DNA from: Xanthostigma xanthostigma | Taxonomy: Eukaryota > Arthropoda > Insecta > Raphidioptera > Raphidiidae | DNA: 64,000 nucleotides | NCBI GenBank assembly: GCA_963575645.1 | Contig: OY754464.1 | Location: 3,782,001 to 3,846,000 of the forward strand | Direction: 5' to 3' | In this document: positions 6,744-54,113 of the stretch, in pieces | How positions within the stretch are numbered: the stretch's first letter is position 1 | Layout of the letters: every line of letters starts with the position of its first letter | Program-made: the position numbers and the translations under genes | Notes under the pieces: generated by a model | Database searches by the model: none | What the model was told of the DNA's origin: nothing | Seen by the model: the letters and a program-made list of their open reading frames with translations, nothing else

Positions 6744-7355
6744 CTAGCGGTCCCGTCCGGATTCACCCGGGTGTAAAAGAACGAATGGGGAAGGGAGGAA
6801 CATGAGTACACACATTCATCTTAGTTTAACGAGATGAATGTTGTGTCCAAATTTCATGACGATCGGAGTTACCGTTCAAAAGCTTTTGTCGATAAAAAGC
6901 AGTATTTATACTTTTTTAAACTAATATTTTTTTTTAATTAATTAAATAAAATTAAAATTAATTTAATTGTAAGCCTTAGAAGAAAGCAATGTAGAAAACA
7001 AAAAAAAAATGAAAATATATTCGCCCAACGTAGGGCTCGAATCCACGACCCTGGTATTGACAGTCGTGTGCTCTACCGATTGAGCTAGCCGGCGTTGTAT
7101 TCTGACAACGCTAATATGAGTATATTTAGTTAGTGCATTTCACCTGAATAGAAACTTATTTTTGAGATACATTTTGCAACATTTTTCATTAATGCTCCGC
7201 TCCTAATGGTCGTAGCCTGATTTTATATAGCATATAGCCTTCCTCGATAAATGAGCTATCCAACAAATTTTTTTTTTCAATTTGAACCAGTAGTTCCCGA
7301 GATTAGCGCGTTCAAACAAACAAACAAACTCTTCAGCTTTATATATTAGTATAGA
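6744..7355 (-). mobile_element. Non-autonomous Helitron-like element Hel-1, copy A (with tRNA-like segment)
   Basis: Read on the minus strand it starts with TCTATACTAATATATAAA and ends with a CACCCGGGTG-like hairpin followed by CCGCTAG and then T: 5' TC, 3' CTRR and insertion between A and T, as known for Helitrons. About 610 bp, no Rep/helicase coding. The centre (7021-7095) is a tRNA-Lys-like stretch. Full-length relatives are at 40472-41025 and 53502-54113; truncated ones at 9236-9911, 36220-36575 and 45391-45993. Confidence 0.7.
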
Positions 7356-9235: not shown

Positions 9236-9911
9236 GGAAAGGAAGGGACATGAGTACGCACATTCATCTCAGTTTACCGAGATGAATGTTGTGTCCAAAC
9301 TGCATAATGATCGGAGTTACCGTTCAAAAGTTTTTGTCGTTAAAAAGCAGTATTTATATTTTTTTAAGTAATAAATTTTTTTTAATATAATAAATATTTA
9401 ATTGAAAATACTGCAGGAAAATTATTATTATAGTTGTAACAATTTTCAAATGAGCTATTAATTAGATTTATTTAATTTTAATTAGTCGTAATAAAATTTA
9501 AAAAAATTGGAATGTAAGTCTTAGATGAAAGCAAAGTACAATATAAAAAAAAAGTAAAAATATATTCGCCGACGTGCGGGGCTTGAACCCAAGACCCTGG
9601 CATTAAGAGTCTTACGCTCTACCGACTGAGCTATCCGGGCTTATGAACGCGACGCGCTAATATTGCAATATTTAGTTAATGCATTTCACCTGATAATATC
9701 TGTCGGACGGACTACATCTTGCAACATTTTTCATTGATGTTCCGCTCTAATTGGTCGTAGCGTGATATTATATAGCCTATAGCCTTCCTCGATAAATGGG
9801 CTATCCAACAAAAAACATTTTTTTCAATTCGAACCAGTAGTTTCTGAGATTAGCGCGTTCAACCAAACAAACAAACAAACAAACTCTTCAGCTTTATATA
9901 TTAGTATAGAT
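9236..9911 (-). mobile_element. Hel-1, copy B (3' end lost)
   Basis: Has the TATACTAATATATAAAGC start on the minus strand, but its 3' hairpin and CTAG end are missing at about 9236. Its tRNA-like segment is the closest of all copies to a real tRNA-Lys(CTT). Confidence 0.7.
9567..9640 (-). tRNA. tRNA-Lys(CTT)-like pseudogene inside Hel-1 copy B
   Basis: Minus strand: GCCCGGATAGCTCAGTCGG is the expected 5' end of tRNA-Lys; the anticodon loop is CTCTTAA; the B box is GGGTTCAAGCC. The anticodon stem is mismatched and two extra bases follow the T arm, so the acceptor stem does not close well. I call it a pseudo-tRNA, not a working gene. Similar stretches occur in the other Hel-1 copies. Confidence 0.6.
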
Positions 9912-24878: not shown

Positions 24879-25816
24879 CAGTGTAAACTCTATATAGCGA
24901 ACTTCTATTTAACGAAAAACTCCTTAAAACGTAGAAATTGCTAAGGTTTGTTTGGTTTACTTTGTTACACATATACAGAAACACTCTATATAGCTTAACA
25001 ACCACTCTCAATAGCGAAACAATACGTCATTATTTTGACTCCAACAATGGGATTCTTAGAAATGTGTTCATTTGTTTGTTGTAATTAAAATACTGGCACA
25101 ATAAAAAAAACGACAAAGTTAAGAGATTATAATTTTGTTATGTAAATTTTTATTGTTTTCTTTTACTCTCCATTTAACGAAAACTCTTTATAACGCAATA
25201 AAATCCCCGGTCCCTTCAATTTCGCTATACAGTATGTAAACACGTAAGGTGTACATAGGGAAATTAACATTGGGAAAAAACAACTGGATCAGAGTGAGCC
25301 TTGAAATCTTGTTTTTCAATTTGACAGATAATATTCTTTTGCAAAATGAATGTGTATACTACTGAAGAAAATATTCAAATGATTACAACATAATCGGACT
25401 TTTTTTATTAATGGGACATTAAATTCCCAAAAATACTTAAATATGGTGCGAGATCAAATATCTCCGCCTATTCGAGTTGAACCTAAAGACATTGGGCACT
25501 GATTTACTAACGCGCATACGTCATGCCAGTCAGACAATTTTTGAATGAAATGTTTCCAAACAGATGGAGTTGATTTTTTGTTTTATTTTTGTACAAAAAA
25601 ATTAAAATAATGATTTATAAGACCTTTTTATTATTAAAAAATCCAAGTAAAATAAAAATTTATCAAAATAAAATAAAAATCCTCAAGATTACAACGATAA
25701 TTCAATAGAAATAATAATTAATGCAGTCATGGCTAACTCTGATCCAAGTATTTTTTCTCAATGCTAATTTCCCATGTGCACCTTACGCGTTTACATACTG
25801 TATAGAGTTTACACTG
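24879..25816. mobile_element. TA-flanked MITE family G hosting family F
   Basis: Ends CAGTGTAAACTCTATATAGC and, after the nested insertion, TAGAGTTTACACTG, between TA dinucleotides. Internal motifs CTCAATAGCGAAAC and AACGAAAACTC mirror the ends. A related fragment is at about 9932-10020. It occupies most of the SCAPER intron 3. Confidence 0.75.
25230..25800. mobile_element. TA-flanked MITE family F, copy 2 (nested)
   Basis: 571 bp, inverted relative to copy 1, inserted at a TA near the right end of the MITE at 24879-25816. The flanks TTCGCTATA and TATAGAGTTTACACTG are the two parts of the host element. Confidence 0.78.
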
Positions 25817-25925
25817 TATATATAATTATATAATGATCTATACTGTAAATTATCACAGCGTTTTTGTTTAGGTGTCACCACGATCTTTATGAATTCAAAG
25901 CTTATCGCATGCAAATAATATTTAC

Positions 25926-28155
25926 CTGTTAAAACCGGTTCATATCTGGTCTCCAAGGATATGTCTTTATCTTCAATATTTGCATCACCGTTACATTCTT
26001 CCTCGTCGCCGCCTTCTCCGTCCGTTTCCGTTCCATCGGTTTCGGTGTCGATATCCGTCGTCGACCTTTGCAGTTCGGCGATCTCCTGCGTCAACTTGGC
26101 TTCCTCTTCACACAACTGTTGACTTTTACGCCGGTGTTCCTCTTCGTCCTGACTCTCGGCAGTCTCGGCCTTATCCGATTTATCACCCTCGGTGTCGCAG
26201 CACTCTGTCTCGATTCCGTTAACTCGTGCTTCGTTTCCTTTTTCAAGTTTCTTAAGTTCATTTCGCTTCAAGAGATTCGATGACTTTTCAGTACTTTTAT
26301 TTATTTCGGTATTTCGTACCGTTGTTGTTAGTTTTTTAGCTGGCGATTTTGTAAGTACTGTGTTAGTTCGTTTTAAATAAGATTGAGGGTTAAAACCAGT
26401 CTTGGCTGTTTGTTTAGTAAATTCACTTTTGGTCGACGCTTTACTATGCAAACCGTAATCTTTACTCGGAGGCGAACTGTGATCGTCTTCTGAATCGGTT
26501 TCATTCAAAAGAGCCAAAGCGGGTAAACTAGTCGTTCCGCTTACTTCGTGGAATCTGTTACCCCACTGAAACTGATGCTTATCATTTAACCTGACGTTAT
26601 TTTTAAACCGCGTCCTTCCTTTCACAGTGAGCCATCCTGTATTATTCTTCTTAGTATCCTGTTTAATTGTCTCTGACGAATTAACAATGGTTTCAGCGGA
26701 ACTGGCAATGCTCTCGACATCCGATTCTTTCGAAAAATTGTCTTGTAACTTTTCAATCGACGCTGAACTAATCCGTTTCGGATTATTTTTTACCGTCGAT
26801 TCTTTTTTTGTTAAAATGCTCGACGAGTACGTTCTCCTGACCGAAGTCGCATTAGTTTTGTGTTGTGGAATTGGTCTACTTATTCTAGAAGCGGTAACGG
26901 TATTTTTAATACCGATGGTAGTTTTCTGTTTTACCAGCCCGCTCGTTCTTGTAGTTACGATTCCGACAGAAGGTTTTATTTCACCGGAAGTTCTGCTTCG
27001 TAATAAACGAGTGTTAGTCGTGACCGGTTTACTTAAATTTGTACGTAGCGTCGTATTATTGACAGGTTTCTGAATATTTTTGCCACTCGAACTTACAGTC
27101 GCCGATCTGGTACCGATCGGAAAACTGTGCCTAGGTGCGGACGTGATCACGTTCGGTTTCGTTACGGGTGGTTTGTATGATCTTGAAAGTGCAGCTGAAT
27201 AATTCGGTCTGACGGTTACGCCAGTCGTGGAACGAACTGATCTCGTTGGCACTAAACTAGCAGTCGGTTTTCCGAGTGAAGTTTCTGATTTTACTGATTT
27301 ATTTGCATTACTGTTGATCACTGTATTCGGTTTACCTAGTAGAGATTCCGATTTGACAGGAATGGACATCGCTGTCGAAACACTGTTTTTTCCTGTTGAA
27401 ATTTCAGTTCTGACTGTTTTATTTGTGTCGACTTTTGTTTCTATTTTCTCCGATTGAGAAACCGTATCGATTTGCTTATTAATTAAATTGTCGATTTCTT
27501 TATCTGAAAGATCGTCTGTTTGACATGCAGAATCGATTTTAACAACGCCAGGTTTCCTCAAAACAACTTTCTTTGGCGACCCTAAGCCTTCAGTATCTGT
27601 ACAAGCTTCAGCCCGATTCACTGAGCTCTTTTTAATGAAACTAACATAAGTTTTCTGATCTTCGCTCGGAGACAGCACGCTTTCTATTACCGAATTTTTA
27701 TTTTTATATTTTTCAGATTCATTTTCAAGGCATTTTGCATTTTCCACCGTTTCATTAGATGTCAAGTCTTTTGCTAACTTCACAATGTTTTCTGATAAAT
27801 TATGTATACTCCCTGCAACATCAAATCTCTTTTCATCTAACGGTTCTTCAATAATTTTTTCAGTAACTGATTTAATACTGTTCGTTTCACTGGACGCGTT
27901 TTGCTGTGGACTATGTATAGGAGGACTAGGGCTCACTCTTTCACTATGCGAAGGACTCGGTAATGTCGTTTTACGAACCTCCCAAGTCAACGATGTGGGA
28001 CGTTGAGGTGCCGGCGTATTTTCATATTCAGATTCTAAACGAAACCATTCGGCCAACGATCGAAAATCGTGTACATATCCTTCTAATATTAAGATTGCTT
28101 CTTGACATTCGATAAGGCTTTCATGAGTTTCAACGGTACTGTAAATATCATCAAC
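25926..28155 (-). CDS. SCAPER: SCAPER coding exon 3 (large central exon)
   Basis: A 2,230 nt exon, residues 98-840. It opens with [20 protein letters not shown] and continues to [18 protein letters not shown] and [11 protein letters not shown], the rest of the SCAPER N-terminal domain. About 550 Ser/Thr/Lys-rich, low-complexity residues follow and are probably disordered. A short conserved island, [12 protein letters not shown], corresponds to human GWETVQRGRP. The end is acidic ([14 protein letters not shown], then repeated TETDG), like the human segment before the coiled coil. The acceptor is TTTCAG|GTTG and the donor ACAG|GTAAAT, phase 1. Antisense frames across this exon are shadows. The middle is much longer than in the human protein, so the predicted product is longer overall. 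Confidence 0.93.
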
Positions 28156-28402
28156 CTGAAAGTTACCAAAAACTGGATTAGACAAAATGAGATTAATACT
28201 TTCTTAACCCTAGAATACTATCGTTATTAGAAGATCGCTCAATACTATCGACACGTAAAATTTACGTATAATCAAAAATAAGCAATGATATTTATAATAG
28301 TGTTTATTAATAATAATTTTTATCATAAAAAACTAAAAAAAATGCAAAAAGTAATTAAAATTAACAATAACTCTTAGTAAAAATAGCAGCTACAAAGTGG
28401 TT

Positions 28403-36219: not shown

Positions 36220-36575
36220 CAAGCGGTCCCGCCCTGTTTCACCCGAGTGCAAAAGAACGAATGAGGAAGGGAGGGACATGAGTACGCACATTCATCTTAG
36301 TTTACCGAGATGAATTGTTGTGTCCAAATTTCATGATGATCGGAGTTACCGTTCAAAAGTTTTTTCCGGACGGACAAATTTTGAATTACATTTTGCAACA
36401 TTTTTCAATGATGCTCCGTTCCTATTGGTCGTAGCGTGATATTATATAGCCTATAGCCTTCCTCGATAAATGGGATATCCAACAAAAAAAATGTTTCAAT
36501 TCGAACCAGTAGTTCCTGAGATTAACGCGTTCAACCAAACAAACAAACTCTTCAGCTTTATATATTAGTATAGAT
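36220..36575 (-). mobile_element. Hel-1, copy C (internally deleted)
   Basis: About 356 bp in spatzle intron 3. Both termini are recognisable (CAAG instead of CTAG at the end), but the tRNA-like middle is deleted: GTTACCGTTCAAAAG is joined directly to the segment before ACATTTTGCAACATTTTTC. It ends about 70 bp upstream of the splice acceptor of coding exon 4. Confidence 0.68.
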
Positions 36576-40471: not shown

Positions 40472-41025
40472 CTAGCGGTCCCACCCGGTTTCACCCAGGT
40501 GCAAAAGAACGAATGGGGGAGGGAGAGACATGAGTACGCACATTTATCTTATTTTATATAGGTACTTATAGTTATAACAATTTTCAAATAAGCTATAAAT
40601 TAGATTTATTTAATTTTAATTAGTCGTAAATAAAATTAAAATAATTTTACATGTAAGCTTTAGAAGAAAGAATATAGAAAATAAAAAAAAATATATATAT
40701 TCGCCCACGACCCTTATGATATTAACAGCCGCATGCTCTACCGACAGCAACCCGGGCTTGTGAATGTACAACGCTAATATTGGTATATTTAGTTAGGGCA
40801 TTTCACCTGAATAGAAGCTTATTTTTGAGATACATTTTGCAACATTTTTCATTGATGCTCCGCTCCTATTGGTTGTAGCGCGATATTATATAGCCTATAG
40901 CCTTCCTCAATAAATGGGCTATCAAACAAAAAAATTTTTTTTCAATTTGAACCATAGCAGTTCCTGAGATTAGTGCGTTCAACCAAACAAACAAACTCTT
41001 CAGCTTTAGGTATATATTAGTATAG
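40472..41025 (-). mobile_element. Hel-1, copy D
   Basis: Ends CTAG at 40472-40475 and TCTATACTAATATATACC at the other side. The tRNA-like segment (about 40700-40757) is strongly decayed, and the stretch before it is shortened. Confidence 0.68.
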
Positions 41026-45390: not shown

Positions 45391-45993
45391 AAATGAAGAG
45401 TTTGTTTGTTTGTTTGAACGCGCTAATCTCAGGAACTACTGGTTCAAATTGAAAAAAAAATTTTTTGTTGGATAGCCCATTTATCGAGGAAGGCTATAGG
45501 ATATATAAAATCAGGCTACGACCATTAGGAGCGGAGTATTAATGAAAAATGTTGCAAAATGTATCTCAAAAATAAGCTTCTATTCAGGTGAAATGCACTA
45601 ACTAAATATACTCATATTAGCATTGTCAGAATACAGCGTCGGTTAGCTCAATCGGTAGAGCACACGACTGTTAATATCAGGGACCAGGGTCGTGGGTTCG
45701 AACCCTACGTTGGGCGAATATATTTTTATTTTTTTTTATTTTCTACATTGCTTTCATTTAAATTACATTTAAATTTTTTTAATTTTATTTAATTAATTAA
45801 AAAAAATACTTATTAGTTAAAAAAAGTATAAATACTGCTTTTTATCGACAAAAGCTTTTGAACGGTAACTCCGATCATCATGAAATTTGGACACAACATT
45901 CATCTCGGTAAACTAAGATGAATGTGTGTACTCATGTTCCTCCCTTCCCCATTCGTTCTTTTACACCCGGGTGAAACAGGACGGGACCGCTAG
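45391..45993 (+). mobile_element. Hel-1, copy E
   Basis: Plus orientation; the first about 20 bp are missing and the 3' end ACACCCGGGTG...CCGCTAG|T is complete. The tRNA-like segment is at 45636-45716, with A box TTAGCTCAATCGG and B box GGTTCGAACCC. Confidence 0.7.
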
Positions 45994-53501: not shown

Positions 53502-54113
53502 TCTATACCTACTAATATATAAAGTTGAAGAGTTTGTTTGTTTGAACGCGCTAATCTCAGAAACCACTGGTTCAAATTGAAAAAAAAAATTTTTGTTGGA
53601 TAGCCCATTTATCGAGGAAGGCTATAGGTTATATAATATCAGGCTACGACCATTAGGAGCGGATCATTAATGAAAAATGTTGCAAAATGTATCTCAAAAA
53701 TAAGCTTCTATTCAGGTGAAATGCACTAACTAAATATACTCATATTAGCGTTGTGAGTACCCAACGTCGGATGGCTCAATCGGTAGAGCATGCGACTGTC
53801 AATATCAGGGTCGTGGGTTCGAGCCCCACGTTAGGCGAAAATATTTTTATTTTTTATTTTCTACATTGCTTTCTTCTAAGGCTTACTTTTAAATTTATTT
53901 TAATTTTATTTAATTAATTAAAAAAATATTAGAAAAAAAAAGTATAAATACCTACTGCTTTTTATCGACAAAAGCTTTTGAACGGTAACTCCGATCATCA
54001 TGAAATTTGGACACAACATTCATCTCGGTAAACTAAGATGAATGTGTGTACTCATGTTCCTCCCTTCCCCATTCGTTCTTTTACACCCGGGTAAAACCGG
54101 ACGGGACCGCTAG
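53502..54113 (+). mobile_element. Hel-1, copy F (full length)
   Basis: 612 bp from A|TC to CTAG|T. The tRNA-like segment at 53764-53837 has a perfect T arm (GTGGG/CCCAC around TTCGAGC) and D arm (GCTC/GAGC), an unpaired anticodon stem, and T runs directly after it that could stop RNA polymerase III. Non-coding otherwise. Confidence 0.72.

Follow-up and report, generated by a model that had tools for sequence, protein, structure and literature searches.

A non-autonomous Helitron family of Xanthostigma xanthostigma carrying a tRNA-Lys(CTT)-derived segment, probably a captured gene

The Lep1 elements of Lepidoptera are non-autonomous Helitrons that are short and non-coding, start with TC, end with CTRR and are inserted between A and T, and their 5' part is conserved while the acquired 3' parts vary between species (Guo et al. 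2014, PMC4038834). In Arabidopsis, a small and tandem cluster of tRNA-Cys genes lies in annotated Helitrons, and the authors of that study from 2023 write that a Helitron-borne tRNA would constitute the first case of a captured non-coding RNA (PMC10701932). SINEs of the Metulj family form composites in Heliconius, one of which involves a Helitron-like element (PMC4016481), and the LTR elements called Helenus have tRNA-like promoters, those from Hymenoptera having been aligned to tRNA-Lys-CTT (PMC10886601). In the literature covered, which for the most part leaves out subscription journals, no named Helitron family with a captured tRNA-Lys was found.

The window analysed here is a stretch of 64,000 nucleotides from the snakefly Xanthostigma xanthostigma (contig OY754464.1, positions 3,782,001 to 3,846,000), and the genome searched comprises 623 Mb in 28 contigs. 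Copy F, located on the plus strand at positions 53502..54113 of the window, is a full-length non-autonomous Helitron of 612 bp with the structure A|TC ... CTAG|T, and belongs to a young subfamily, Y. The 5' core of the family presumably resembles Lep1. A whole-genome DNA search with F gave 4728 candidates, and all 40 that were scored are nearly full length with 92–100% identity. Thirty young loci were fetched (L001–L030), where L001 is copy F itself and is counted within the young group; the remaining 29 match F at 93–94%, and the consensus of the 30 loci is 611 bp long. The exact start TCTATA is found in 26 of the 30 young loci and is preceded by A in 24 of these, counted in the orientation of each element, and the exact end ACCGCTAG is found in 25, with a T following CTAG in 23; A and T each make up 32–33% of the window. 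TC at the 5' end, CTRR at the 3' end and insertion between A and T, which are features of Helitrons, are thus present, and since the copies of the window contain no ORF of at least 150 aa the element is a non-autonomous Helitron. A short hairpin before the 3' end, described in the earlier note, can indeed be drawn, but shuffled sequence gives folds of equal stability (z 0.33, -0.51 and -0.12). A 25-base word from the core had no exact match in the viral_contigs and genome_contigs collections.

Six related copies had been proposed for the window, all with Helitron-type ends, and the six are confirmed, each being matched by the 5' part of the consensus and at least some of the 3' part, but both ends are clean in two of them only, A and F. 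Copy A (6744..7355, minus strand) has both Helitron ends and a tRNA segment at 7022-7094. Copy B (9236..9911, minus strand) belongs to the older subfamily B, with the 3' end missing and a tRNA at about 9578-9640 in which the CTT loop is intact, and one match of the CTT-loop pattern described below, C1:3791585-3791619, falls inside it. Copy D (40472..41025, minus strand) has an internal deletion and a partial tRNA at 40704-40757 from which the T arm is lost; its TC and CTAG are present, but a G precedes the TC. Copy E (45391..45993, plus strand) is truncated by 26 bases at the 5' end and therefore does not start like a Helitron, and its tRNA at 45637-45716 contains a short insertion. Copy C (36220..36575, minus strand) retains the Helitron start, ends with CTTG and has no tRNA, the place of the insert being at about 36365-36378. 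A tRNA-Lys segment at the same internal place in five copies is therefore correct for A, B, D, E and F, and C is the copy without it. The statement that C has lost exactly the tRNA did not hold, as C is without the whole insert, that is the tRNA together with its 5' and 3' flanks. A preserved T arm and B box next to a broken anticodon stem had been ascribed to both E and F; in F arm and box are indeed intact, and in E the T arm is changed. The T arm is altered in A also, and deleted in D. The window contains in addition an ORF of 800 aa on the minus strand (25783-28185) with a Pfam SCAPER_N domain (E 1.8e-26), indicating that the window is located within or near a SCAPER gene.

The tRNA-Lys(CTT)-derived segment of F spans positions 53765..53837 on the plus strand, as placed by the alignment and by Rfam model RF00005, whose match in F (53772-53829) scores 30.4 bits. 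No other match in the window reaches gathering thresholds, and ARAGORN finds no tRNA in the window. The 5' strand of the acceptor stem and the anticodon stem are broken in F, and the anticodon is now GTC. The pol III promoter boxes have the consensus sequences TRGYNNARNNGG (A box) and GGTTCRANNCC (B box), and F has a fitting A box, TGGCTCAATCGG, at 53772..53783 and a fitting B box, GGTTCGAGCCC, at 53816..53826, both on the plus strand. The T runs that were said to follow the segment are present as T5 and T6 at 53844..53855 on the same strand, past the tRNA end, and constitute a candidate pol III terminator. T-runs are found in each of the group consensuses Y, M, G and B (the groups are described below), beginning about 7 bases past the end of the tRNA.

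Loci with a better preserved tRNA were collected by a whole-genome search in which the query was a tRNA-Lys(CTT) gene sequence; it gave 1557 candidates, of which 40 were scored, with matches of 95–99%, and 30 loci were fetched (L031–L060). Of these 30, which had been chosen for their tRNA likeness, 24 yield a tRNA with ARAGORN, namely 19 Lys(CTT), one Lys(TTT), three Asn and one Gln. The program detects none in the main copies of the 30 young loci, although it assigns Asn and Asp to two side copies in L004. The RF00005 scores of 20 loci are 36.6–54.5 bits in group M (n=7), 37.9–42.7 in group G (n=3) and 32.7 in group B (n=1), and among nine young loci six score 30.4, two are under the cut-off and one is not listed. 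The older subfamilies thus score as near-complete tRNAs, and the young subfamily to which F belongs is the most decayed. Helitron flank sequence is found in all 44 of the tRNA-Lys-like loci examined outside the young subfamily (L031–L060 and L088–L101).

Exact patterns for the CTT-loop form, run over both strands of the whole genome, match at 936 and 1922 places, with no match for either of the reversed controls, and a pattern for the 5' part matches at 1335 places, with 6 for its reversed control. A chance likeness to tRNA was considered and is ruled out by these nearly empty controls (0 against 936 and 1922, 6 against 1335). The patterns with 936 and 1922 matches skip the young copies of the F type, which have the loop CTGTCAA. 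Judging from the subset that was read, nearly all of the pattern places should be Helitron copies.

A donor was sought with seven narrow whole-genome patterns for the gene or its anticodon arm, none of which led to a canonical tRNA-Lys(CTT) gene; the loci read around pattern matches (L090–L101, and those among L031–L060) are all Helitron copies. Of these, L090–L094 are all five matches of one pattern, one of them being hit by another pattern also, L096 is the sole match of another, L095 is among the 15 matches of yet another, and L097–L101 are five of the 936 CTT-loop places besides copy B. As the patterns are narrow, 100 of the 936 places were listed and some stretches of the genome read as N, the absence of a host tRNA-Lys(CTT) gene is not proven, and with no donor among the search results the boundary of the capture is not defined against one. 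The Lys(CTT) gene of the host either differs from the query sequence or sits in a stretch that reads as N or is unassembled. Thirteen Lys(TTT) loci are present among those fetched with RF00005. Another tRNA-like repeat, TAGC..AGTGGTGA.AGCAC...GGGTTC.AATCCCGGC, occurs with similar flanks in L083–L087 and is perhaps a family of SINE heads.

By the tRNA and its flank the copies can be divided into groups M, G, T and B and the young group Y, to which copies A and E are close. When the columns of the tRNA are left out, an unrooted tree of 60 rows (eight of the 30 young loci and the other rows) has {T,B}, {G} and {Y,AE} as starred groups, and the M rows are scattered around them. The groups differ in the way in which the anticodon stem is broken. 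In 13 of 31 M rows the 3' strand TCTCA is kept and the 5' strand is changed, and in two of the 31 TGAGA stands together with TATCA. In three of the four T loci it is the 5' strand TGAGA that is kept, opposite TGCCA or TGTCA, and L096 differs also at 31-39. The simplest ancestor has TGAGA and TCTCA, which form a normal stem, indicating that the gene was probably intact at uptake, and breaks on different strands in different subfamilies suggest that an intact gene was captured and then decayed. The anticodon stem has thus probably been broken more than once after the capture. That no more than 13 of the 31 M rows retain TCTCA slightly lowers our confidence in the reading as a whole, and the two M rows with TGAGA and TATCA leave the order of the stem breaks unsettled. 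Among the 100 copies listed of the 936, five anticodon pairs occur in none, four in 5, three in 23, two in 71 and one in a single copy, and a fully paired anticodon stem is therefore absent from all 100.

Whether the pol III boxes are conserved above their flanks had been raised in the earlier note, and the answer differs with the level of comparison, since the boxes are mostly kept between subfamilies but decay like the flanks in single young copies, where 18 of 712 sites are lost in the boxes and 156 of 6376 in the flanks (p 0.90). The preservation between subfamilies might be due to selection on a pol III promoter, consisting of boxes A and B with a T-run, if a short RNA or open chromatin aids transposition. 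The Y, M, G and B consensuses each keep a B box that fits GGTTCRANNCC as well as the T-runs, and among these four consensuses 6.5% of the compared box sites differ, compared with 26.7% of those in the anticodon arm, 35.7% of those in the 5' strand of the acceptor and 18.4% of those in the 5' flank. The advantage over the 3' flank (8.5%) is not a clear one, however, and the 5' core (3.4%) is better kept than the boxes. In a list of changed sites that is hand-made and post hoc, 12 of 24 sites are changed in the acceptor and anticodon stems compared to 3 of 18 in the D and T stems (p 0.049), which speaks for selection, but the boxes do not stand out from the rest of the tRNA (4 of 23 compared to 17 of 50, p 0.17). 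The conservation of the arms is moreover biased, as the M loci were picked by tRNA likeness, and the patterns that led to several of the T, B and G loci already demanded parts of the arms. Of the 31 matches listed for the A box (32 rows were listed and one chance match was dropped), 19 have the box intact and 9 have G as its fourth base, and one subfamily has an altered A box. For the B box, 71 of the 100 copies listed show no change, and its site rates resemble those of its neighbours. With the copies that have no tRNA also speaking against it, we consider a selected promoter unlikely on this evidence; the boxes are retained in most of the group consensuses, and selection is not demonstrated. 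A still more doubtful proposal is that the Helitron retains the promoter and terminator in working order for pol III and makes a transcript of its own, with selection on the master copies favouring breakage of the stems because many working lysine tRNAs would be harmful to the host.

The presence of the segment can be judged from the 12 copies that were not chosen for a tRNA, a number that leaves out pieces that are one-ended or cut by the end of the locus, e.g. in L015, L023, L034, L049, L055, L057 and L072. It is present in eight of the 12 (A, B, D, E, F, two in L004, and L081), so that the copies of this sample do not mostly lack the segment, the outcome that would have spoken against the idea of the earlier note, and four are without it (C, L021, a unit in L053, and L075). 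In C, L075 and the fused unit of L053, which differ slightly from one another, the sequence runs on without a break near ...TTTGTCCGTC..ACAAAAACTTTTGAACGG. The short copy L021:3006-3321 is plainly different from this junction; the first approximately 35 bases of the element are joined to sequence just past the tRNA, which is an internal deletion. The 7-bp sequence CGACAAA flanks the insert on both sides in L090, L096 and L097, making a deletion by slippage possible, and the junction is compatible either with an insertion plus a 7-bp repeat or with a later deletion across the repeat. The ancestor may thus have had the tRNA, with the C-like copies having lost the insert by recombination at the repeat, and the fact that one of the four tRNA-less copies has arisen by a different deletion fits with this, but the junction is nearly identical in three of the units and is crossed cleanly in L075, for which reason a tRNA-less ancestral state is equally likely; we find the derived origin conceivable, though somewhat doubtful. 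It is very improbable, on the other hand, that the segment is a tRNA-derived SINE that was inserted into the Helitron and then carried along, for which the Heliconius composite would be a precedent (Lavoie et al.). About 60 bp upstream of the tRNA start are common to the groups and the T-runs begin about 7 bases after the tRNA end, indicating a gene with its flanks and not a SINE head, and at these T-runs pol III would stop before any SINE body. The 3' strand of the acceptor is complete in the group M consensus, and a comparison of the 20 bases before the tRNA with the 420 bases after it revealed no target-site repeat, in that no shared word exceeds those of shuffled sequences in any of the 31 loci. 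The 5' head, body, tail and target-site duplication of a tRNA-derived SINE are thus not seen. In L052, on the reverse strand at about 1100-2120, a young-type Helitron with its tRNA joins an M-type copy at GACAAAAGCT, forming a chimeric composite that holds two tRNA units.

Of the three origins suggested in the earlier note, a captured gene is the best supported, on the strength of the older subfamilies, of the T-runs behind the gene and of the common 5' flank, whereas a SINE head is unlikely, and a role in pol III transcription stays a candidate. Our main reading, to which we assign a probability of about 0.78, is that a Lep1-like Helitron captured and amplified a tRNA-Lys(CTT) gene, the stems of which were then lost, and that the segment is now probably a passenger. 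A non-autonomous Lep1-like Helitron would have taken up the complete gene, probably once, in a piece consisting of about 60 bp of 5' flank, the gene, and an AT-rich 3' flank with T-runs. We infer that a helper located elsewhere drives rolling-circle transposition, by which the element may have reached over a thousand places. The anticodon and acceptor stems would then have been lost from one master copy after another, differently in each subfamily, so that the RNA would no longer be usable as a tRNA, while the D and T arms with boxes A and B would have changed less than the other stems. The direction of these events is the one that we think most probable. In most copies the segment should accordingly be seen as a likely passenger, which, as far as can be predicted from the DNA, might still recruit TFIIIC or pol III.

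We regard the capture as probably real and as unusual, and the earlier note was right in regarding a tRNA piece kept within a DNA element as out of the ordinary. If our reading is right, the family is a clear case of a Helitron that has captured and spread a complete RNA gene and not a fragment of a protein gene. The copies are also a source of false tRNA annotations, with ARAGORN calling Lys, Asn, Gln and Asp anticodons, and the subfamilies of differing age make it possible to test for selection on a pol III promoter that is carried by a DNA transposon. Set beside the description of Lep1, the family is similar in being short and non-coding, with TC and CTRR ends, insertion between A and T and a conserved 5' part, but it carries a tRNA, a term that does not occur in the main text of that paper (PMC4038834). 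It shares with the Arabidopsis tRNA-Cys cluster a tRNA gene within Helitron sequence, but that cluster is tandem, whereas the copies described here form a dispersed family with recognisable ends (PMC10701932). As in the Metulj composites, a tRNA-derived piece has been spread as the cargo of a DNA element; the cargo there is a SINE, whereas here it is similar to a tRNA gene with flanks and T-runs, and no SINE body is seen (PMC4016481). The Helenus elements likewise keep a tRNA-derived sequence in a mobile element that is not a SINE, but they are LTR retrotransposons with the tRNA located in the LTR, and the word Helitron does not occur in that paper (PMC10886601).
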